Assembly (NCBI GenBank): GCA_963971405.1
Contig: OZ020489.1
Span: 17,324,290 to 17,388,289 of the forward strand
DNA length: 64,000 bases
Source: Psococerastis gibbosa
Taxonomy: Eukaryota; Arthropoda; Insecta; Psocodea; Psocidae
Reading direction: 5' to 3'
Program-made: the position numbers and the translations under genes
Shown: positions 13,739 through 59,837 of the stretch, piece after piece
How positions within the stretch are numbered: position 1 is the stretch's first letter
Layout: every line of letters starts with the position of its first letter
The notes under the pieces: model-generated
Told to the model about the DNA's origin: nothing
Databases searched by the model: none
Seen by the model: the letters and a program-made list of their open reading frames with translations, nothing else

Positions 13739-14011
13739 ATTACACACTCTAATATTTATTCTATCGAGGTAATATTTGGAAAGTTTATGTTGAAGTACGC
13801 GGTTTGAATCTGAATTTAGATAGGTCTATTAGGTTAGTTTAGTTTAGGTTTGGTTAGGTTAGGTTAGTTTAGGTTAGGTAAGTTTTGGTTAGGTTAGTTT
13901 TGGTTAGGTAAGTTTAGGTTAGGTCAGGTTAGGTTAAGTTACACTTTCCAATTTTTCTTGGACCCATATTTATTTGCATTGAATATTGGAGCCATTTTCT
14001 AATGTGTAATA
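13739..14011. mobile_element. TTACACACT MITE carrying a TTAGG-like insert
   Basis: The ends ATTACACACTCTAATATT and TCTAATGTGTAATAG are inverted. The copy at 38322-38470 matches its left part (through GAATCTGAATTTA) and right part (from TTACACTTTC). Here a 110-bp TTAGG-like tract lies exactly between those two points. Confidence 0.75.
13829..13940 (+). repeat. degenerate (TTAGG)n-like tract
   Basis: Repeated GGTTAGGTTAG, TTTAGG and TTTTGGTTAGG units over about 110 bp. The motif equals the typical arthropod telomere repeat in degenerate form. It is interstitial, interrupting the MITE at 13739-14011. Confidence 0.8.
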
Positions 14012-25563: not shown

Positions 25564-28500
25564 ATGTTGATAACTCGTTTTATGTCAAGCACATTGAGCT
25601 GGAGGGCCTGTTTCAAATCAAATCGTCTGCTTCAACAGTACAAAATGGCCAAACAGTTAAGTAGTAGTCCAGTGTGTCTAAGTTCTGTTAACATGATCAA
25701 AGTGAAGCCTGTAACTCATGTCATCTTCGACATGGACGGGCTCTTATTGGGTATGTATATTTTCATTAGTCTAAGCTCAGTTTTAAGTGTGTACAATTAT
25801 TTATTTTTGATTGTTATCGTCCCAAAGATTGGTATGACAATAGGCTAGTAATATTTTTGAATTGGGGTTGCTAGATGAAAACTTTCTGTTAATTTTACTG
25901 ATAAGTTAAAATAGTGTTTGGAAAAGAATTGACCGCGGTCTCTTCTCTAAGGAAAACTTCACGTGGCAGCGCTTGTTGATATGATATGGTGAAGTGATAT
26001 GGCTCCGGACAGACAGACTGCTTTACTGTCTCATAATATTATCTTGACCCGGTAAGTAGTAATTGCTGAAGTAGCACGACGTTTTGAAGGGTGGGTTAGT
26101 AGCTAAGTAGAACAGTAATTATGAAAATTTTTAAAACACTCAATAGCAAGCTTGCTTCTTACCGACAAGTCTAGATGTATTGGAAATGCTCTACGAATAT
26201 TTTTTATAGACTTGTAGACGTAGCCTAACAATTTATGGTTACCTTGGGAGTCCCAAGTTGGGACACCTTACCTAAAGAATTTAATTCGAGGATAACCTGT
26301 AAGGAAAGCCCTTATAACGTCCTCGCGTTTGATTTTGTTGATTAGATACCGTGCATCTTTACGAGGTTATCAGGCAAGAGATTCTCGCTGAATTTGGGCA
26401 CGAGTACGACTTCCAAAGAAATATTGCTTCACAGGGACTACTAAGTCAAGAAGTTGCGAAAAGGATAGTTGAAGAGTTCGACCTGCCCATTACTCCTGAG
26501 CAATATCAGGAGAGACATATTCGACTTGCTTCACAAATTTTTGCTAATGCCAAACTTTTGCCAGGTAGCCCTGAAACGGGCTTCCCATGTTACAGTGGTT
26601 AAATTACTGAGGAAGTTGTGATATCAATTTTCTTCCTCTTCCTGCGAGTAATAGATGGCGCATAATTTATATTTGAATCACGGCCGGGATTTTAGCCTCA
26701 CACATTTTTATTTTTATTTTTTTATTTTTCAACGTGACGGGGCGCGTCGGTGTTATAACTCAAGACCCTCGTGAACCAATTGTTAGTGCTAGCAACGAGA
26801 CGGAAGGGGACTTTAATTATTAGATACCAGTGGTATATATCAGCATTAAAAATTAAAATGACTTCTTATTTTGGTATTAAGCCGCCTGTGTTTTCATGTT
26901 TTTCTCAGCAATACCATCATCGCATCAATTGTTATGAGCGCACGGGCCTTTAGCATTGAATTGGAGTAACCAAACAAATTTGCTCTACCCTGTAAGTTGT
27001 CACCCCATAATGTGTGTTGTCTATCATACACTGGTGTAACTATGAATTTGGGGCACTTACGCAATCCAATAAAAGGGGCCCAATTGTTCCCTGAAAGGTT
27101 TGCAAAAAATTGGGGGGTCCAAGTTCTAGTTGTGCCGGTGTCATCATATTAACCCTACTAACCCGCTTATTCTTTGTAGACACGGAAATCATTTACGAAA
27201 AAATTATTAATCAAATTGTTGTCAGCTATGGAAAAGAGTATACCCGAGATATCAGGTTAGCAGTTCTTGGTACTACAGAGCAAATGACTGGAAAAACCGT
27301 AGTTGAACTTTGTGGACTGCCCATTCCTGTTGAAGAATTTTTGCAGAAGTTCAGAGCTTTGCAAAAAGAAGAACTTGGAAAAGCTGGGCTATTGGAAGGT
27401 AATGTATATCTATCCGTTTTGTTGATGTTTTCCCTCTGCAACCCGAGCACGAAGTTAACTTATTTTTGTGGTTAAAAAAAACAAAATTATAAATAAATAA
27501 ATAATAAATTATAATAATAAATCAATAATAGAACTTTGCATTAAAAAAGAAAAAAAAAAGAAAAAGAAAAGAAAGGTAGGTACATTTTTAACCCCGGCAG
27601 TAAATAGGGCTCTGAAATTGAATATACCAGACTAGTAGAATGGCCATCCACGCCTCAGGCAATCAACGATTCTGCGGTGGTGACCCTGAGTAATCGGGTG
27701 GTTTCCGCCATGAGCCCACTACGGCCAAATCAATGTTATCTACCCGAGACTAAGACAATCTACAATTCCCGCAATTATTTTGACCCAAGATCAAGTCAGC
27801 AGTTGAAAATTTCAAACCTGGTCCTTTCACGACGATTTGACAATTACCACCTACGTTTGCCAGCTTATCAGCCATGTTTAGCTCATGGTTATGAGCCATC
27901 TATTATATTTTATTATCTTTGGAATATACTACAAAATAATACTCAGCATTTTAAAATCAGTAGTTAGTGAAGAGTATGTTAATAAGAATAATGATATAAA
28001 TTCAGAGCCCTAGTATTAAGGCGCCCTTTCCACCGACCGGCTAGAGCTATTTACAAAAACAGTGACGTGGTAGCAGACATTCAAGACTTAGGCGGGGTTT
28101 CCACCGACCTCGCATTGCAGAATTGACGGAAATGTTTATTTTCCTCTATGCCATAGTTAAAATGTATCAATGATCATACGGTAAAATCACAAACAAACAA
28201 ACTAAAATAAAAAATGGCGTCATGGGATATGTTAAGTACAAACATTTTAATAGATTTCTATAAAAAGAAAAATTCTAATTTCCGTCAATGTCATTTGCAT
28301 TCTGCAATGCGAGGTCGGTGCAAACGCCACCTAAGTCTTGAATGTCTGCTACCACGACACCGTTTTTGTAAATAGCCCTAGCCGGTCGGTGGAATGGGCG
28401 CCTTAGTTAAGTTGGCACCTCGTGCTCGGACCTGCACAGAAGTGTGTTTACGGATATGGACTGACAGTTCTATTTACCCGTAAATACGCTTTAAAGGACT

Positions 28501-31500
28501 TGAATAAACATATTATCAGCGTTATCAAGCGTGAGATTTCATCGAGGCCACTTTTCTTGTAATACCATCACCGGCAACGAGTATATTGTATATTGGTTAA
28601 AGATAGCACTTTTAGTCGTTAGTAATTAGTAAATACTTCCTGTTTTTTTTCTAATCATAATTGAATTCGACTACGGTTATATTTTTTAGTACCTACTTCA
28701 ACCTGCTGGGATTAAAAATGTATCCATGACAATTTTAAAATGGAGAGTGCTATTCTAAATGGTTTTGTCTCCATTTTTAATCCCATGATTAATTTGATAC
28801 TAAAGAACGGAGTAGGCCCTCAGGTATCTACCAGAGATATCTGGCCTGTACTATAAAATTTAGTACAATACCTATTAAATAGGCCTAAGTCTTGGGGTAA
28901 AAATGTAAACAAAACAATTTAGAATAGTACTTTGCATCCTCAAATTATCTTGTTTTTCACATCTATATTTTTAATCCCAGGTTAAGATAAGAAACAATCA
29001 CTATAGTAGGCCTACAGCTAGTCAAAAACATATAGTTTGACAGTTTGTCACTGTTTTTCCTGAAGACGCCACATTCAAATTATATGACATGGGTGAAATT
29101 TTTGTTCTGTTATGCATGTTGTTGCACTTACACTGCCGGCAATGTAAGTCTAACTTACCTTTCGATAAATAATTGGATGTGAATAGTTTTTGGGTAACAT
29201 TTTCTTAAACCTCTGCGACCAGTCACTAACGTCCTCTGAACTTCCTTCCTTCCTATCATTCGCTTGACCTGACCTGTCTCACGCCTTTTTTTTGCTGATC
29301 AAAGAAGTCTTGGTGAATTTTCTCATAGTTATTATTACCCATTACTTCATAGTTCATTAGCCACACAACACCACTGGATGTAGTGTGGCTTGACCAGGCC
29401 CGCACCTAGGATTTAATTTGGGGGGGGGGGTTCAAGAACAATTTTTTTTATAAATGATAGGTTACATCCTTATTGATTTTAGTAGGCTAGTTTTAGCTAA
29501 AACTCTTACATTATTTATTATTTTTAAAAAAAATTAGGGGGGCCATGGCCCCCTTGCCCCCCCCCCCCCCCTTGGGTACGGGCGGGGGCTTGACTCGTAT
29601 CCCTACTTCGTTAAGTCGAGCTCACGCCAGTTTCTATATGACAAATCAAATATTCAGATCAAGCATAGCCTAAACTAGTTAACTAGTTAACTCATCTGAA
29701 CTTATGAAAAACTTAGTCATGCTGGGCGACCTTGACCTGCATGATGTTAATCAGCTGTGCCCTGTGTATGAAACTTTAACTTGCATGAAAAAATCTGTAA
29801 AGTTAAAAAAATTAGTGCAAATTTGGTATGGTTACCGGTTTTTAAAACATACATTTTTAAGATAAGCTTAGTGTTTTATCAGCGGTCATCTTAATTTTTT
29901 CGGAGATCGTAATAACAGAATGATCAGCAGTACAGAAGGGGTTCATTGCCGTTTGAGTATATAACCATCTTGCTTAAATTGATTGCCTTTTTCCCCTACT
30001 ACGTGTAAATAATGTTTTTTATGGATTTTTTTTTTTTTTGAAGGGTTATGAATTACATCTATTAATGCAATAAAATAGGTTTTCATAAACTGTCAAGTAG
30101 CCTATTAATTGGAGGTGGAGGGGCCGCTTTTGCTCCCGTGATTGGCTATGCCAGTGAATTGGCCCATATTTTCGGTTCGGTCCGGTTCAGTACCACCGGT
30201 AAACCAGTTTTTATTATTTTCCATGTCTTTTCGGGTCTGGTCCTGTTTGGGTCTGACTATCCTTGGTTAGATTGGATAATTATCCAGACCGATTCCTTCA
30301 AACTAATATCTTCTCGATCTTGGTGGCTTCCATTGTTAGCTTACCTAATCTGCTACCGGGAACAAATGGCATTTTCGGTTAATTTGTGATTAAAAAAAAA
30401 CTAACGTAATACGAAAATTTCCGAAAACTTTCTCTATAGGCTGATGTTAAATTTAAAAATTACAACACGTAGACCTACTTTACTGTTATTGATTTCCTCG
30501 GTATTTTTCTACCACTGTGCTTTGGGAGGCCCACAAGTCAGATAGTTTAATCTAGCCTAATTTATTTATATATGAATTCCCTATCTATGATAACCGTTGG
30601 ATATAGTCGTAGGTACAGATTTCCCCCAAAGGTATAGGTCAACTTTATTGTTTGCTCTTGAATCCTTATGAAGGCTTGGCATAACGCTCAATTCATTCGT
30701 TGAGGGGTACTGGGGTGCATAGAATAGATTGCGCCCAAGCATAAGCTAAATATTGCCGATAGTGGGCAAACGTAAGGGACAGTTGCCAAACTGTTGCGCA
30801 GACGTTATGAAAGCATGGTCGTTGCGCCTCATGTGCGGGAATCGTTGATTGCCCGAGACATCTTTATAGCTTGATTTTATTGTATTGGGCTTATAGCGAG
30901 AACCACATGAAAAAAAAACAGGGAATCGTTGATTTCTTGAAGTGTGGCTATCTTTCTACCCTGGGTAGTACCAATCTCAGACTACGAGTCGTCCTAAGTG
31001 TCTGAGAGCCAATCGCATTACTGAAGCGCTAAAAAGGTGCATTTTTACCATGTCATGCCCGCTAAAGACCGTAGCACAAGTTTGATTTTCTTAGTGCTTA
31101 AGGATCCATTTGAATAAATCCAACTGTCATGTAGGCGAACTAGCAGCAGCCAAGTTGCGGAACAAAATCACAACTAAAAATGTCAATTACCTAATTACCT
31201 TACCTTACATTTATTTGAGTTCTGGCTTCTTACAATGGTATGTGCGTTATTCCTTTCTAATATCTACTTTAGTTACATGTCAAGGAACCTAGGTTTTTAT
31301 GTTCATACGAGCCCTATTAAGAATTTACAGTAGATAATATTGGCTATAGCTTACTCTAGCCAATGCAAATAGAATATATAGAACAGGTTGTAGCATGCAG
31401 GCTGCAGGTGTGCGATTGACCTTGTTTACCAATTAACTGGTGATTCACATTACAGGTGCGGAAAGACTGGTTCGGCACCTGCATTCCAACAAAATACCAA

Positions 31501-32155
31501 TCGCCGTTGCGACCAGCAGCGGGAGCGAATCCGTCGCAGTAAAGACAAAGGATCATCAGCAAATATTTAGTCTGTTCCACCATATTGTGATCGGGAGTAC
31601 AGATCCTGAAGTAAAGAATGGCAAACCGGCCCCCGATATTTTCTTAGTATGCGCTAATCGTTTCGATGACAAGCCACCGTATGAAAAAGTAATTTCATTT
31701 CATTAGCATTTTATAATTTCGCCACTGAGTAAGGGTCGACACTGACCCTTAAACCAACTGGGGAACTTGGTTAAGTCAGGTCAAGTATGGAAGAGCGTAG
31801 TTGCAGAATATAATTAATATTTTGGAAAATAATTAACCATGGATGGTTGGAGGCACTCTTACATACTATTTATATTATATTACTATATTAATAGACATTA
31901 GAGAAACAGTAAAACATGATGATCTGGCTTGTACCAGTACTTTGAACATGCACTAAAGTATAGTTAAATTGTTGTTTTCAGTGCCTGGTATTTGAAGACG
32001 CGCCCAATGGAGTCACTGGAGCAGTTGCAGCTGGAATGCAGTCTGTGATGGTACCGGACGCTTCGTTACCAGAAGAACGAACGAAACACGCTACCCTAGT
32101 TCTTAAGTCTCTCTGTGATTTCCAACCTGAGCTTTTCGGCCTGCCACCTTTCTAA
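25564..32155 (+). CDS. pseudouridine-5'-phosphatase-like HAD hydrolase, alternative cap exons
   Basis: Cytosolic HAD-superfamily phosphatase similar along its length to human PUDP/HDHD1, which dephosphorylates pseudouridine 5'-phosphate, and to insect GS1-like proteins. Exons: 25564-25750, then either 26346-26564 (2a) or 27180-27398 (2b), then 31456-31688 and 31982-32155. All junctions are GT-AG, with phases 1,1,0. Motif I FDMDG is in exon 1. Motif II VATSSG and motif III Lys in GKPAPD are in exon 3. Motif IV FEDAPNG is in exon 4. The end [10 protein letters not shown] is typical of the family. Exon 2 encodes the helical cap. The first ATG is 25564, but 25645 (AAAATGG context, 243 residues per isoform) fits family length better. 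The 4-kb intron before exon 3 holds MITEs and a hAT-like element. Confidence 0.92.
26346..26564 (+). CDS. phosphatase cap exon 2a
   Basis: 219 bp between TTGATTAG and GTAGCC, entering and leaving in phase 1. It completes the Asp after LLL and encodes [17 protein letters not shown] through [10 protein letters not shown] to AKLLP plus the split Gly. This is the closer match to the PUDP cap pattern (ILAEFG/DLPIT/LLPG). It is 219 bp, exactly as long as 2b. Confidence 0.88.
27180..27398 (+). CDS. phosphatase cap exon 2b
   Basis: 219 bp between CTTTGTAG and GTAATG, same phases as 2a. It encodes [20 protein letters not shown] through [10 protein letters not shown] to AGLLE plus the split Gly. A hand alignment to 2a without gaps gives about 24 identities in 74 positions. 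The frame is intact and both splice sites are good. Joining exon 1 to 2b to exon 3 restores a full HAD protein just as 2a does. Confidence 0.85.
28020..28402. mobile_element. GGCGCC foldback MITE, outer of a nested pair
   Basis: Inverted ends GGCGCCCTTTCCACCGACC and its inverse, flanked by TAA and TTA. Arms carry GACGTGGTAGCAGACATTC. The element at 28091-28331 sits at its centre. Located in the phosphatase intron. Confidence 0.8.
28091..28331. mobile_element. GGCGG foldback MITE, inner of the pair
   Basis: Ends GGCGGGGTTTCCACCGACC and the inverse GGTCGGTGCAAACGCCACC. TTA lies to the left and TAA to the right. Removing it restores the palindromic centre GACTTAAGTC of the outer element, which is consistent with insertion at a TA. 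Confidence 0.75.
28700..28985. repeat. two short palindromes with TTTTTAATCCCA ends
   Basis: At about 28706-28790 and 28890-28985, each has arms of the GGGATTAAAAATG type. They resemble 8695-8787 and the cores of the 43490 and 54508 elements. They lie in the phosphatase intron and have no coding content. Confidence 0.5.
29395..29586. mobile_element. hAT-like G-tract element, 192 bp
   Basis: Left end CAGGCCCGCACC. The right end GGGTACGGGCGGG is its near inverse, with the last three bases changed. An exact 8-bp duplication GGCTTGAC lies at 29387-29394 and 29587-29594. It contains G10 and C14 runs. Confidence 0.85.
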
Positions 32156-34507: not shown

Positions 34508-37500
34508 ATGTTATGTTTCAGATGTCTTCAACCCATAAATAGGAATCTAGAAACTTCAATCATCTTTCGAAATGCAAATTATTATGGGAAGAGTAAATTT
34601 TTATTTAGAGATCGCTGGACTAGAAGTAGAGGTTTCAGAGATAAACGAGGTCAAGGCAAGTTTGCGCCCATTCCTGTCGAGCCACCGCCAGGGCAGCCTT
34701 TAACATATAAAGCACTAGTGAAGCCATTTGTTTTTACATTGGGGGTAAGTTCACTTTTTACACTACTATTAAAATCCTCATTTTTTACTACAGTAAAATT
34801 TATGTCTTGTACAATAGGTACCTATGGTATTTATGTGGCTGAAGCTGTAAATTAGATCTGAAACTGATAAGCTGATTGTTTTGGTCTACGATTAAATAGT
34901 ACCTATTTCACTTCTTAGATAATATGATGTTATCATTTATTTCAGTTCTCAACCGCTACGTTAACTGGTTGTACAATATGGCAGTATGAAACCATTCGAG
35001 CTCGTCAAAGGGGCAGTTCCTGGTTTCCACAAAATTGGTTTCCTGATCGCCAAAAAGCCGGAAGCTGGCGCCAGTCCATAAATGATCTCTGGAATGGTCT
35101 TTCTGAAGCCGACAAAGTGTTCGCTCCTGTTTTATTTGCCAACTTTTTGGTATTTGTCGCTTGGAGAATACCTAGATTTCAGCCTACAATGCTCAAGTAT
35201 TTTGCTAGCAATCCTGCTGCAAGTAAGTTCCCATTTTAAAGTTTCCCTTTTGGTCTCATGTAACTGCTAATTTACGTTTCCATTGCATTGAGGCCTCCTC
35301 TGAGATTTCATAAATTGGTAATAAAGTTGACCTCTTGCATTAATAATAACAGTCATTATAAGACAACCCTTGCTTAAAATATGAATTCCCTTGCAAATGG
35401 GATGTTTTCCTTCCATATTAAAAGTATTTTCATTCGACTTCGGGTAAAATATATAATACAGTATATGCTCTATATAATTTTATTACTTTAGCCATAATTT
35501 AGGCAGCTGGCCAAGACGGCAAGGACTGTTCCATATTCTAATTTCACAATACATCAATCAAACCTTCATTCACTCTTACATCATCATAAATTCATAAACG
35601 AATTGACTTGCTAATTAAAGCGCACCACTCGAAATTCTATAATATCGCGTCAGCATGAATGTTTGAAATAAATAAATAAATAAGGACTTTTATTCTATTA
35701 CTAAGCCAACCTAGCGGAGTTAGGGCTATAAAGCCCTCTCTTACACTCAACTAGGAAAGCCCGGGACCGCCTGCTTTACATTTCCCTCCGAAGCATGGCC
35801 AGAAAATGAAGGAAGTGTAGGACTCGAACCAACAACCTTTCGGGTTTAAGTCAGAGTCCGTACTACTACTCTGCATGTCCTGAATGTTTGTTGTAGTGCA
35901 TGTGGTCGCTACAGTGGCATGAGTTTGGTTTATTTTGACCTTAATGTTGGGCAATAATCATAGAATCCTTGAATGGGCTAAGGATATTTATTTATTTATT
36001 GACTGATTGACTTTATAAGAAAGAAAAAACAATAATATAAACCTGCCATCACAGCGAAAATCTGATATTGGTCAGGATTCAGTCTCTTTTATAAAATAAT
36101 GTTGAGTTTTCATTGTTCTTTTCAGAAGTTGTGTGCTGGCCGATGTTCTTATCTACATTTAGCCACTACAGTTTTTTCCACTTGGCTGCCAATATGTATG
36201 TTTTGCACTCATTTTGTCTGCCAATGATCCAATCCCTTGGAAAAGAGCAGGCATCTACATTGTATTTGTCTGCTGGAGTTATAGCTTCTTTTTCAAGTTT
36301 CGTTCACAAGGTTGCTACAAGACAGCCTGGGCTATCAGTTGGAGCGGTATGTAACCATTCATTTTAGGGCCCAGTCCTACCACGCTTAGAAATGTTTTAG
36401 TAATGAATAATGGAGGCACGCTATGCATTGGTACATGGGGGTGCTGCCATACTCCATATCAAGACTCGGTAAAGAAGTCTGACGACCGGACTTAAAACCT
36501 ACCTTGCTGCAAACTAGGGATGACGTTGCCGTTGTTTTTTTTATAATCGTCGTACATGTGAGTTATGACAATAAAATTAGAAAATCTAAATCAATTTTTT
36601 TTATTCACAGGAAATAGAAACCTGTAAAAAATAATTACAAATTAAACACGCAAGTGTCAAACTATTGACATTGTCGGCAAGGTGGTACTTGTGCGAGTCG
36701 CTACACGCCATGCGATCAATACAAATACTAACTTACAGAGGCGACTGAAGAGGTCAATCAGATACATTCATTAAATGCGATTAACCCTTTTAAAAAATAA
36801 AAATAAAATGAAAATTGTTTTTTTTTCAGTCTGGAGCAATCATGGGTATGCTGGGTTTCGTATGCACCCAGTTCCCGGATACACGACTCTCTATTATTTT
36901 TTTGCCCATGTTTACATTTACGGCAGGCATGGCCATCAAAGTTGCCCTTGGGGTTGACTTTTTGGGAGTAGTGCTCGGTTGGAAATTTTTTGACCATGCC
37001 GCCCATTTAGGAGGGGCACTCACAGGAATGTAAGTATGATATCTCTTACCTGCTGTGCAATAATTGAGCAAGAAATGTGTATGTAGTCTTGAAATGAACC
37101 TTTTTTTAAAGTAAGTAGATTGTTGCTTTGTAGGGAGAAATAGCTGGCCTGATCAGAACGTTCTCATTTTCTTCTGCTGTGAACTTGTGTCTCCCCTATG
37201 AGGTTCTGTAGGGACAGTTTTGGTCACTAGGTTCGCTGACGGCAAACCGATATCCATATTATTCAAAATGGCCGCCGTTTGCATGTGAAAGCTAAGCTCT
37301 TAGCATCTAATTAATTCTTTTAAAATTTTTAATAATATTTTTACTATGCCTGGACCTTATTTCGCTGCATATAATTTAATATATATATTCTCCATGATTT
37401 ATAGAAAAATATCACTTTAAAATAATACATAAATAAAATAATTTTAAAATAGTATTGAGGCTTATGGAAAAATCAACGCTTTGATATCAGTGCAACTGGT

Positions 37501-39075: not shown

Positions 39076-39417
39076 CTATAATCTGTGAAACCGATTAAAC
39101 CGTTTGAAAATTTTCTTTTTGTACTGCTTCTTTGTTGGATTTTTGAAGACGCCCATGAAGAGCATGTTTTGGGATGCCTTATCGTAGATGATATAAATAA
39201 AAGGATGATTGGCATGGAAAGTAGTCGGGTCGAGGGGTCTTGAGGATCTAAAACTAAAGATGGCGGTTGCTGCAGCTGCTACTGTCCCCTCTTCGTCAAC
39301 ATCAACCTTCGCCTTGTGGGTAGCACCATCAAAGTGAATGTCTCCGTCGCCCCCTGTTAGCGTTGAGTAGTCTGATCCGTTTGTAAACATTTCACTTAGC
39401 CCAATGCGGGAAAAGAC
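39076..39417 (-). CDS. serpin last exon with reactive-centre loop
   Basis: 114 codons starting VFSRIGLSEMF in phase 0. After the hinge the loop reads IFSFRSSRPLD. Counting 17 residues from the first hinge Glu puts P1 at Ser, but the Arg just before it (FR|SS) is a more natural P1 for a trypsin-like protease, so the scissile bond is ambiguous by one residue. In insect serpins this is the exon that is often duplicated as a variable cassette. Confidence 0.9.
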   Translation of the reverse strand, partial: VFSRIGLSEMFTNGSDYSTLTGGDGDIHFDGATHKAKVDVDEEGTVAAAATAIFSFRSSRPLDPTTFHANHPFIYIIYDKASQNMLFMGVFKNPTKKQYKKKIFKRFNRFHRL

Positions 39418-42400
39418 CTGAAAAATTATTAAAATTAGAATAGAATATAGAATTTCCCGCACTCTTTTTTAAAGCAAATGAATCGATGAATCAATTGAAT
39501 TGGCTGCTGTGGCAAGTTGATAGCGTGCTTGTACTTTTGCGAGTCTCTATACACCTATGACGCGTCGTAACTCAACACAAATATCTATTAGGTTACTGAG
39601 TGAGGCGACAGACCAGGTGAATTGGTTACACTCGTTTATAAGCATTTCACTTAGCCCAATGCGGGAAAAGACCTAAAAAAATAATTAAATATATAATACG
39701 CTGCGTCTACCTACTATGCCGTTTACAGATGTTCTTAACACCAGGAATAGCATTAAATTATTCTGAAACCACAATTGGTTTAATTGTTCTAAACAAAAAA
39801 AGTGCAATGTGCGGGAAATTCGAATTTTTCCATATCCTCTAATGTTGGTTATAACAACCAAAGTTAATTTGATGTCAGTGTTATACATATACCACATAAT
39901 ACTACAATGTATTTATTACTATGACATGTTTTAACTTGACACAAATATCTATTAGGTTACTTAGTGAGGTGAATGAGGAGGTCAATCGGATACATTCGTT
40001 AATTTGTTTGTTTGCGATTAGCCTTTTCAAAAATAAAAAATAAGAAAAATCAGGGCTTATTGATATTATTGGCAAGAATAATCTGTAAACGGCATAGGGC
40101 TGTTGGTTGTAATCCATTCATAAGTTTGTTCCTTTACTTAAGGTACTGCTGCCATACACAATTAGTTAGTAGTAGTAGTAGTAGTAGTAGTAGTAGAAAC
40201 TTGTAGTCGGGTCCCAGGCCACAATTCACACTTGTCGAGTTCTATTGCTTCTGCGAATCTCGCTATGGCAGCAGGTTGGACTACTAGAGCCCAGCCGTCA
40301 GTAGCAAAAGTGCACTCTAGATGTTAGAGTCTCGGGCGCCAGATCACATGACACTCAGAATGTGCCATCCACTTTCGGCCTCCTTCCCACAATGTCTTAT
40401 AATATATATTCCTTACCTCCTTGAGCTCAAGTTCTTCTTCTACGGTAAATTTGGGAATTTTCACTTCAATCGGCCTAGGATACATGGCTTCGAAGTCTAA
40501 AATGTCCTTAAGAGCTTCTTCATTGAGGGACTTGATAAGTTCGTCGATGGCCTGGTTTCCGAATCGGGGCAGGATAAATATCATGCTGACATCGCCTCCT
40601 TTGTATGGCAGTTCTAGAATGTGCGCTTTCAGGTACTCAGATTGTACTGCAATGAAAAAGATAATGCAATTGAAACTTGAATAATTGCATATGAGAGACT
40701 GTATAGGTACTGATGGAGCAGTAGAATCCGGGCTGATAGGCTGTGGTCGATCTGAAAGTGAGCCTCCAAACGTTTCGTCAACATCCGCGAAGCCTCTGAG
40801 ATACAATCTTAGAAGTCTAGGCAGTTCCACTGAAAGTTCACTTTCAGATTGAGCACGGCCTGCTTCACCATCTGATTCCGCTAGTCCTGGATTTATAAAT
40901 AGGCCGCGGCCTAGGGGCGGCAGATTTCAGAGGACGGTCACTTGATTTCAGAGGACGGTCACTTGATTTCAGAGGATAAAAGTCAAGCACGTCCACTGGT
41001 GAAGCCTCTGAGATACAATCTTAGAAGTCTAGGCAGTTCCACTGAAAGTTCACTTTCAGATCGAGCACGGCCTGCTTCACTGCTTCACCATCTGATTCTG
41101 CCAGTCCTGGATTTATAAATAGGCCTTACAGCCCGCGGCCTAGGGGCGGCAGATTTCCGAGGACGGTCTCTTGATTTCAGAGGATAAAAGTCAAGCACGT
41201 CCACTGGTTTTCTCATGGTTTTTTATACTTTCAATAAATCCCTAAAGAAAGAATCTTATTCCTATTGAAACCTATATGGGGGTATGTACATGGGGTGGCG
41301 GAAATAAAGTGGCCTACACTCATAAAAAATATAAATCCGGTACTGGATTCCGCCTGAAAAACATACTTCCGTGATTCTTGAGGAGTATTGTACCTACAGG
41401 TATGCTATAACTTGCTGCATGAAAATAACACAGATACTTTGTCATAAGATGTAAGATTTAACTCACGACACAAGTGCTAATATAAGGTAAACTCACAATA
41501 GTTGAAGGTTCCCTTTTGGCTCATCATATCAACAAATCGGATATCAGAAGTGCTGCCATAAAATAAATCATTCTTCTTCGTTTGCTCCGACAAAAATTTG
41601 GATTTCCACAGTCCCTTGAAGTACGCAGCGTTCGCCTTAAAATAATAACAATGTATTAATTGCGTGATTGAAAGCATTGGAATGTATTAAAGTGAAGATG
41701 TTACGTAAGATTTGAAGATATTACTTGAATGGGTTGTAATGGGTAAACCGGTATGCCTGATGAGCATCGCATAGCTCCATTACATGTTGTTTTCCTTCAC
41801 TAATCTGTCAAAATGATCATGTCATTGTGGTTGCGGTTTTTTAGAGCAGTTGTCATCTGTCCTGACTAGTATTACCATATCGTGTAACTTTTCGGCTTAA
41901 CGTTCTTTTTTATGCCGAATTAATGGAAAAGAAACATGCCCAAATTAAACATAACGTTAAGAAATCCATGTACTGGGCTCATCCTCTAAGCAGGGGTTCC
42001 CAACAGTTTTTATCCATGGACATTAGATTATTTTATGATTTTCCGTGGACCACCATGGCTGCGACAGGAAAATCGTCAAATTCTAGTATGATTTGTGCCT
42101 ACAATTACATGCTAATATTTGATTAAAGGTTTAGGACTGATATAGGTTGGATTTTATAGTTCAGTGCCAAGACTTACTGTATTTTACATCAAATTTCCAA
42201 TATGTCTGCTGTTTTATTTTCTTGTTTCTTACTTTGGTCCGTGTCTATCTGTGGACCACAGTTTGGGAACTCCTGCTCTACAGAAAACTTCATGTAATTT
42301 GGATTTTACACTTACCAAAATGAGTTTGGTATTTTCGTGAACCCCAGAAGCAGGTACCAAGTCCTTAATGTGGCCCCTGGTTATATTGTACACCCATCCG

Positions 42401-57225: not shown

Positions 57226-58975
57226 TAAATTTCTTTCTTTCTTTTCGCCTCCAACGAAAGAACTTATTAAGGTGGTAGTGGCCTAGTGACCGATTTTGTT
57301 ATTTTATATATATATATATATATATTAATGATTGGGCTACTACATACAGCAGGTCATGTTATGACTCGGAAAAGGAACTAAAAGAAACAGGTAGCCCAGC
57401 AGCAGATGGTCCCTGGATAAAATATTTGTCAACTTTATTGAATTTTATCAAAATCTGTCAAGTATAGAAGACCCGAGTTGCTTAACAGAGAGGCAGAAAT
57501 AACTTTTCACTTTATTGGGGTCCTTAGTCCTCAAAACGTGCTATTCTGAAGAATTACGTTTGCTATTGCTATATATCATACAAGACGAATGCCTTATACA
57601 TTCTGTGCTCTGTTTGGAACATATACGCTAGTAATAATTACATTTCAGTTAAGATAAAAAGATTAAGTTATCTTGATCAACATTCTTTATGTATGAATTA
57701 TTGATCGTCGTGAAAACATCAGACGTTCGACTGCCGTTCTTATTGCAGCGAGATGATTTGGACTTTGGTGTATCGGAATAATGTACAAGAATACGTGTGA
57801 ATATAGTAGTTCTTGTTTGGTTCTACTATAGCGTTGTGAATAAATAGCCTTCTAAATTCTTAAGAAGGAGCATGGATATGAATAATTTATCAACGTGCAC
57901 AATAGATCTTCGTCACCGCCTAGCAATCGGTTTTTTTCTTTAAAATTTCAAAGCAAATGTTGGCAGTTGTTGGAACTGCCGGCGAAGGTCCCCCGTTCAA
58001 GCCGAATCGTGACTGCGCCATTGACACGATACAGTAAGCGCTCCCGCTTACTGCTTGGCGGTTTTGTTTGAACTGGGTTTCATTCGGACAATGGTTTGCA
58101 CGATCGAGTACAGCTAGTTACCGTCATAAAATTTCCAATGATTCTGCGATTGTTTGCTTAATGCTTAACAGTGATGAATTCGGAATTTCATAGCGATACG
58201 GGTAGATCAAGTAGATACGATAACAAACCCAACCTCTTGACTAGAGGATTTTCCTATTTTCCAACTAACACCATGGGCTCAAAATTGGGGCATAGCGCCG
58301 CCCCCCCCCCCCCGCCGCAGGTTCCTAAATGATCATAAAGATTAATGTCTGTATTTTATTGTGGAATGGTGGTTAGGCACATATAGGCGAAACCTACCTG
58401 CAATAACGCTGGTTTATAATTATACTTTTTGAAATTTTGTCTTTCGTTGCCACACGTGAGAGCTCTTTCTATGAATAAAAATTAATAAAAAATAAATAAA
58501 AACTAATGAAAAAGTATAAAACATAAACAAACAAAATAATTGGACTCTTACGGATTGCACTGACCATATAAAATACTCGTAACTGTAGGCCTACTTGGGT
58601 TTTAAAGTCATGCTTTCGCTTGTTGCATTGCCTTAATGGTAAGTTTGTCTCAGTTTATCCATTATCGCTTATTTTAGTCGGTGGAGGTTGACATCAACAA
58701 CGTATACCAGTTTGCCAATCAAAAAAATCATATAGAAACAATTTAAATAATGTTCGAAATCCCTGGGGTCGTTGGCAGTGGATCAGGGACCAATTTATGG
58801 GCCACTATTTAAGTAGGCCTCGGTTCACAAAAAGTCCTTCAGGAAATTATTTTTATATAATAAAGCTGTCTTCAAGGTAACATTATACAGGTATACTGTA
58901 GCATTGAATATATAACTCCAGAGTTACAAGTATAATTATATTATATGACTGCACCTATAAAAGTTAGATGTTCGT

Positions 58976-59767
58976 GAATTTAACACAGTTGCATAGCTTA
59001 GAAAATGCAGAAGTTCTGTGAAACCACACGATTTATTGCGACGTGTCCGTATCAGCCTCACCAACTGGCTGGGCAATGTCTGACTAATTCAACTCCACTT
59101 AGTTACTTAATTTTATTGCTTTCTAATTTATAAGGAAAGCATTGTGACGGTCCAAATTTTCGATTCCGAGATTTCAACGGATTTACACAGTTGAGTTGAA
59201 TTTAACACAGTTGCATAGCTTAGAAAATGCAGGAGTTATGTGAAACCACACGATTTATTACGATGTGTCCGTATCAGGCTCACCAACTGGCTGGGCAATG
59301 CCTGACTAATTCAACTCCACTTATTTACTTAATTTTATTGCTTTCTAATTTATAAGGAAAGCATTGTGACGGTCCAAATTTTCGATTCCGAGATTTCAAC
59401 GGATTTACACAGTTGAGTTGAATTTAACACAGTTGCATAGCTTAGAAAATGCAGGAGTTCTGTGAAACCACACGATTTATTACGATGTGTCCGTATCAGG
59501 CTCACCAACTGGCTGGGCAATGCCTGACTAATTCAACTCCACTTATTTACTTAATTTTATTGCTTTCTAATTTATAAGGAAAGCATTGTGACGGTCCAAA
59601 TTTTCGATTCCGAGATTTCAACGGATTTACACAGTTGAGTTGAATTTAACACAGTTGCATAGCTTAGAAAATGCAGGAGTTCTCTGAAACCACACGATTT
59701 ATTGCGATGTGTCCGTATCAGGCTCACCAACTGGCTGGGCAATGTCTGACTAATTCAACTCCACTTA
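58976..59767 (+). repeat. 222-bp tandem repeat, ~3.6 copies
   Basis: TAACACAGTTGCATAGCTTA starts at 58981, 59203, 59425 and 59647, an exact 222-bp period. Each full unit contains GCTTTCTAATTTATAAGGAA plus AATTTTCGATTCCGAGATTT, the left end of the 860-bp element. The last unit runs on into a full body of that element after a deletion. Confidence 0.95.
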
Positions 59768-59770
59768 GTT

Positions 59771-59837
59771 ATCCGAGATTTCAACGGATTTACACGTTTT
59801 GAGGTACCAGGAACCCAAAAAAGTGGTTTTTACGAAA

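Follow-up and report, generated by a model that had tools for sequence, protein, structure and literature searches.

Probable alternative lid exons, produced by tandem duplication, in a Gs1-like (PUDP/HDHD1) gene of the barkfly Psococerastis gibbosa

The closest described system to the locus analysed here is the Gs1l gene of Drosophila montana, from which cDNAs have been cloned with either exon 2 or exon 3, giving short forms that are identical in length, differ at residues 25-94 and were both modelled on human HDHD1A (PMC5953924). Short forms predominated among the clones, possibly through PCR bias; the long clones numbered 12, of which 9 were intron-retaining and 3 possibly artefacts, and the retained intron brings a stop (PMC5953924). 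From homology models, the authors concluded that near the active site the short forms hardly differ in function from HDHD1A; the exon 2 and exon 3 regions responded differently to cold acclimation (PMC5953924). For the human gene, the isoform list quoted in the same paper gives an insertion between residues 20 and 21 and a form in which residues 51-93 are missing, and it names no duplicated cap exon (PMC5953924). These human breakpoints would fit exon junctions at the same places. Beyond PMC5953924, no description of a Gs1l cap-exon pair was found among titles and abstract openings, and the word Gs1l is absent from the main text of PMC3228551, PMC3303723 and PMC9013439. The arrangement is already published for D. 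montana Gs1l, and P. gibbosa provides a second insect example.

The gene in question lies on the plus strand of the window, by which we mean the whole 64,000-nucleotide stretch of P. gibbosa DNA that was analysed. Exon 1 (25645..25750), coding from an in-frame ATG taken as the putative start codon, carries HAD motif I (FDMDGLLL) and ends in phase 1. Intron 1 (25751..26345, 595 bp) leads to exon 2a (26346..26564, 219 bp), which encodes the first alternative C1 cap (DTVHLY...KLLPG), and intron 2 (26565..27179, 615 bp) separates this exon from exon 2b (27180..27398, 219 bp), which encodes the second (DTEIIY...GLLEG). After intron 3 (27399..31455, 4057 bp), which contains a high-copy inverted-repeat element at 28017-28405, follow exon 3 (31456..31688) with HAD motifs II (ATSS) and III (NGKP) and exon 4 (31982..32155) with motif IV (FEDAPNG) and the C terminus LFGLPPF, then a stop. 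All splice sites of the gene are GT-AG, and both 2a and 2b have ag..gt flanks and are in phase 1 at entry and exit. The frame is open in all four splice forms, namely those containing 2a alone, 2b alone, the two together (316 aa) or no cap exon, and the protein is 243 residues long with either cap exon.

The roles of the HAD motifs, which sit in a Rossmann core, are established, and C1-cap HAD enzymes carry one cap between motifs I and II. The four motifs (DxD, T/S, K, D) and a predicted helical cap between motifs I and II place the P. gibbosa protein among these enzymes. The initial annotation held that the catalytic motifs are confined to the constant exons 1, 3 and 4, and this is where we locate them: FDMDG in exon 1, TSS and GKP in exon 3 and FEDAPNG in exon 4.

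We propose, with a probability of roughly 0.8, that this is the Gs1-like (PUDP/HDHD1) gene of P. gibbosa and that tandem duplication of its cap exon has given the alternative exons 2a and 2b and so two lids. The spliceosome would place one cap exon, 2a or 2b, between exon 1 and exons 3 and 4, and the outcome would be two 243-residue enzymes with one catalytic core and different helical lids. The suggestion that 2a and 2b are alternative exons is strongly supported by the D. montana Gs1l cDNAs with either cap exon. That gene belongs to the same protein family and likewise has equal-length alternative cap exons, constant flanks and a stop on intron retention (PMC5953924). The two loci differ in that the post-cap part of the fly gene is labelled exon 4, whereas P. 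gibbosa splits it into exons 3 and 4, and barkfly and fly are of different insect orders. Some points weigh against alternative lids: the donor of 2a is the lowest-scoring of the gene, 2a is without a Glu typical of the family so that the form with 2a might be a poor or inactive enzyme, and pairing between the introns did not stand out in a partial test.

The assignment to a pseudouridine-phosphatase-like gene is well founded. Both forms match human pseudouridine-5'-phosphatase (PUDP/HDHD1A), starting at its residue 20 or 21 and running through to the C terminus, with E = 6.5e-72 and 7.3e-72 against 9m7l and E = 7.6e-71 and 8.5e-71 against 3l5k, and the core is identical to human PUDP at 99 of 149 positions. 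The Pfam families HAD_2 and Hydrolase match at 76 to 82 bits (cut-offs 24 and 26); the isolated 74-residue exon peptides gave no Pfam match at E up to 0.1. The form with 2a reaches 112 bits on TIGR02009 against 96 for the form with 2b, both below the cut-off of 153; on the MtlD model (cut-off 800) the order is reversed, at 78 bits for the 2a form and 90 for the 2b form. In all, several HAD family models favour the 2a form and others the 2b form.

The genome (409,210,807 bases in 68 contigs) was searched for further copies, the best candidates being scored. Five of the six matches at E up to 10 are the gene's own exons, and the sixth, on another contig (C15), has E = 0.96. No paralogue, retrocopy or second gene copy was found among the best candidates of the 409 Mb genome, and the gene appears to be single-copy as far as such a best-candidate search reaches. 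Neither was a third copy of the cap found in the window by tblastn of both forms at E up to 10. A scan of viral contigs returned 29 pattern matches, with no relative among them.

Exons 2a and 2b had been described as equal in length at 219 bp, the same in phase and alignable without gaps at about 24 of 74 positions, and all of this stands as stated: the gap-free alignment has 24 identical residues in 74, the last of which is completed by exon 3. Its BLOSUM62 score is 94, compared with a mean of -26.5 (sd 10.6) and a maximum of 15 in 2000 shuffles. At the nucleotide level 102 of 219 positions are identical, and of the 74 codons 39, 38 and 28 agree at positions 1, 2 and 3, respectively. Positions 1 and 2 together (77/148) are more alike than position 3 (28/74; one-sided Fisher p = 0.03), a bias that hints weakly at selection acting on the protein.

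Structure prediction suggests that both exons encode the same unit. Each exon peptide, aligned with the other exon and 13 bacterial caps, was predicted as four helices, with a mean pLDDT of 77.0 for 2a and 82.6 for 2b. The first structural match found by Foldseek for both caps is human HDHD1A (3l5k), with TM-scores by query of 0.86 (2a) and 0.80 (2b), but the E-values are no better than 0.012 and 0.014, with none of the matches as low as 0.001. The models are thus compatible with one four-helix HAD cap fold for 2a and 2b, shared with the human protein; this is compatibility and not independent proof, because the alignments contained homologous caps.

We compared the two lids with the human cap and with those of bacterial relatives, of which there are at least 80 loci, the best matches of the scan and mostly Pseudomonas; all 80 translations were usable and 75 are distinct. 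The human protein is homologous and shares the predicted cap fold, yet its cap is identical to 2a at only 22 of 74 residues and to 2b at only 20, with 12 residues common to all three. Mean cap identity to the 75 distinct sequences among the best 80 bacteria is 29% for 2a, 31% for 2b and 36% for human, compared with core identities of 54% for the insect and 51% for human. In eight chosen non-Pseudomonas rows the corresponding values are 32%, 29% and 38% for the caps, and 54% for each of the two cores. By these identities the insect caps have changed a little more than the human one, and the insect core has not.

Cap loop 5 reads SQGLL in 2a, VLGTT in 2b and VMGKK in human PUDP. The residue after the loop-5 Gly is R or K in 70 of the 75 distinct sequences among the best 80 bacteria and L in the other 5, and the K/R-flanked Gly of the pseudouridine-5'-phosphatase type is absent from both 2a and 2b. 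Substrate choice by other C1-cap enzymes depends partly on a cap loop whose conserved Gly usually has Lys or Arg as its flank, although exchange of the loop motif alone did not suffice (PMC6956230). Since TM_1254 likewise lacks a flanking basic residue in the alignment (IMGVP), the missing basic flank in 2a and 2b should not be over-read. Elsewhere in the cap, two residues without variation in the 75 distinct sequences among the best 80 bacteria and conserved in human, a Trp and a Lys, are replaced by F and N in 2a and by R and R in 2b. The initial annotation proposed two phosphatases of different specificity; the contrast between the cap loops would allow this, and it is plausible that one lid accepts other substrates than the other or handles them with another efficiency. 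The homology to PUDP stands; pseudouridine-5'-phosphatase activity must not be assumed from these sequences.

A different view of the same pair is that the lids are functionally equivalent and that the choice between them serves regulation, such as stress- or tissue-dependent expression, and not substrate. This is compatible with alternative splicing and rivals the specificity claim only. It draws on the D. montana study, in which the short forms were taken to be all but equivalent around the active site and cold acclimation shifted the two exon regions differently (PMC5953924). On the other side are the mere 24 of 74 residues shared by the caps, the contrast of SQGLL with VLGTT around the loop-5 Gly, and the influence of cap loops on the range of substrates in other members of the C1-cap class (PMC6956230). 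Weighing these, we give equivalent lids a chance somewhat short of even.

It could also be that 2b is constitutive or dominant and that 2a is a decaying duplicate, rarely spliced and giving a weak or dead enzyme, and the splice sites and residues of 2a bear directly on this. The initial annotation had called the splice sites intact, which they are, but the donor of 2a (CAG|gtagcc) scores lowest at 4.7 bits, below exon 3 (5.6), exon 1 (5.8) and 2b (7.7, the highest), on a donor matrix that was not trained on the present genome. The Glu of the DTE motif, found in all 75 distinct sequences among the best 80 bacteria, in human and in 2b, is Val in 2a, and 2a has S and Q before the loop-5 Gly where human, 2b and nearly all bacteria among the best 80 have hydrophobic residues. 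Against decay, pyrimidines occupy 10 of the 16 acceptor bases of 2a, compared with 12 in 2b and 9 each in exons 3 and 4, so the acceptor of 2a is no weaker than the constitutive ones. Further, 2a is open and gap-free over 73 codons, and in a crude neutral simulation of the exon the frame stayed open in only 87 of 2000 runs, so an unconstrained copy would usually carry stops. The family Pro near the cap end is kept in 2a and lost from 2b, and 2a is as near to the human cap as 2b is (22 against 20 of 74 residues). With this Pro and its higher scores on several HAD family models, 2a does not look like simply the worse copy, and we consider its decay quite improbable.

Returning to two working lids, 2b might be the default exon, given its stronger donor, and 2a the regulated one. 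This is only weakly indicated, because the acceptor pyrimidines do not set 2a apart. By eye, a branch-site-like TACTAAC lies just upstream of 2b.

As neighbouring internal exons of similar length, the same phase and homologous sequence, 2a and 2b have features in common with mutually exclusive exon pairs of insects in general (PMC3228551). Exclusion of so similar a pair is expected from the survey of the Drosophila melanogaster X chromosome, where such a combination is seen in only 0.56% (90/16180) of the exons outside mutually exclusive sets (PMC3228551). By analogy with D. montana Gs1l, most transcripts would carry one cap exon at a time. Unlike the known insect pairs, the P. gibbosa exons have no detected docking or selector structure, in a partial test on a single species. 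That test set duplex energies, computed over windows of 60 bases, against 20 dinucleotide shuffles for each intron pair and took intron 3 as its first 618 bases only (27399-28016); shuffles paired as well or better in 11 of 20 cases for introns 1 and 2, 3 of 20 for introns 2 and 3 and 12 of 20 for introns 1 and 3. We found no sequence feature enforcing exclusion in the length of intron 2 (615 bp), the GT-AG sites, the frame-keeping double inclusion or, in that partial test, the intron pairing. As a separate observation, among 25 listed of the 43 inverted-repeat pairs in 25751-31455, one (I19) joins 26649-26665 in intron 2 with 27889-27905 in intron 3 over 17 nt at 94% complementarity and would loop out 2b; it is possibly a chance or repeat-derived pair.

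It had also been remarked that inclusion of both exons keeps the frame, so that exclusion cannot rely on nonsense-mediated decay. This holds for clean double inclusion, which stays open, but not for retention of intron 2, which runs into an in-frame stop at 26600-26602 (ORF 26342-26602). Joint inclusion of both exons to give a functional protein with two tandem lids is highly improbable, for although the frame is open with both and the 615-bp intron 2 is long enough to splice, C1-cap HAD enzymes have a single cap and the D. montana clones, with their possible PCR bias, are mostly short, with nine of the twelve long ones intron-retaining.

As for the age of the duplication, the cap tree is too saturated to resolve it, with end branches of 5.1 (2a) and 5.7 (2b). 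In the tree without TM_1254, neither a grouping of 2a with 2b (p-AU 0.43) nor one of 2a with human (0.26) is rejected; the best tree itself joins 2b with human, without support (57/25). We offer as a tentative and rather unlikely scenario that the cap duplication predates the barkfly-fly split and has since been maintained, with one gene making two phosphatases of unlike substrate and the canonical pseudouridine-phosphatase loop in neither of them. More generally, occurrence both in a barkfly and in Drosophila points either to an ancient isoform pair retained by insects or to this one exon having been duplicated more than once. If both lids are active, the gene is a lid exchange made by nature on a constant core, and so a clean test of substrate choice by HAD caps. 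The comparison also carries a warning that insect genes named pseudouridine-5'-phosphatase by homology may lack that specificity in both isoforms.

Several other features were seen in and around the gene. The inverted-repeat element in intron 3 (28017-28405) has arms of 107 nt that are 93% complementary, and the best 40 of 982 candidates are the element itself and 39 copies at 95-97% identity over nearly its whole length; it belongs to a high-copy, probably young MITE-like family. Downstream, a rhomboid-domain gene lies at about 34508-37033 on the plus strand, PARL-like by eye and with a Pfam Rhomboid match in the ORF 36812-37033. A serpin gene follows on the minus strand (39076-40926), with Pfam Serpin matches in the ORFs 39076-39468 and 40324-40926, a reactive-loop stretch reading EEGTVAAAATAIFSFRSSRPLDPTTFHANHPF, and more serpin-like ORFs, by eye, to about 43409. 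Beside the serpin exons, ORF segments recur by eye in 40600-41220, a region that also holds a perfect 21-bp tandem repeat of 2.6 copies (40923-40976).

Nearer the start of the window, 2924-2996 on the minus strand matches an Rfam tRNA model at 30.2 bits (gathering score 29) and is not called as a tRNA by ARAGORN, which suggests a tRNA-derived element or a decayed tRNA. TTAGG is the usual insect telomere unit, and a degenerate interstitial array of about 22 such units lies at 13829-13941; the same unit also forms long arrays near 53.61 Mb of contig C1. Finally, a tandem array with a 222-bp unit, 3.6 copies and 97% match occupies 58975-59771.
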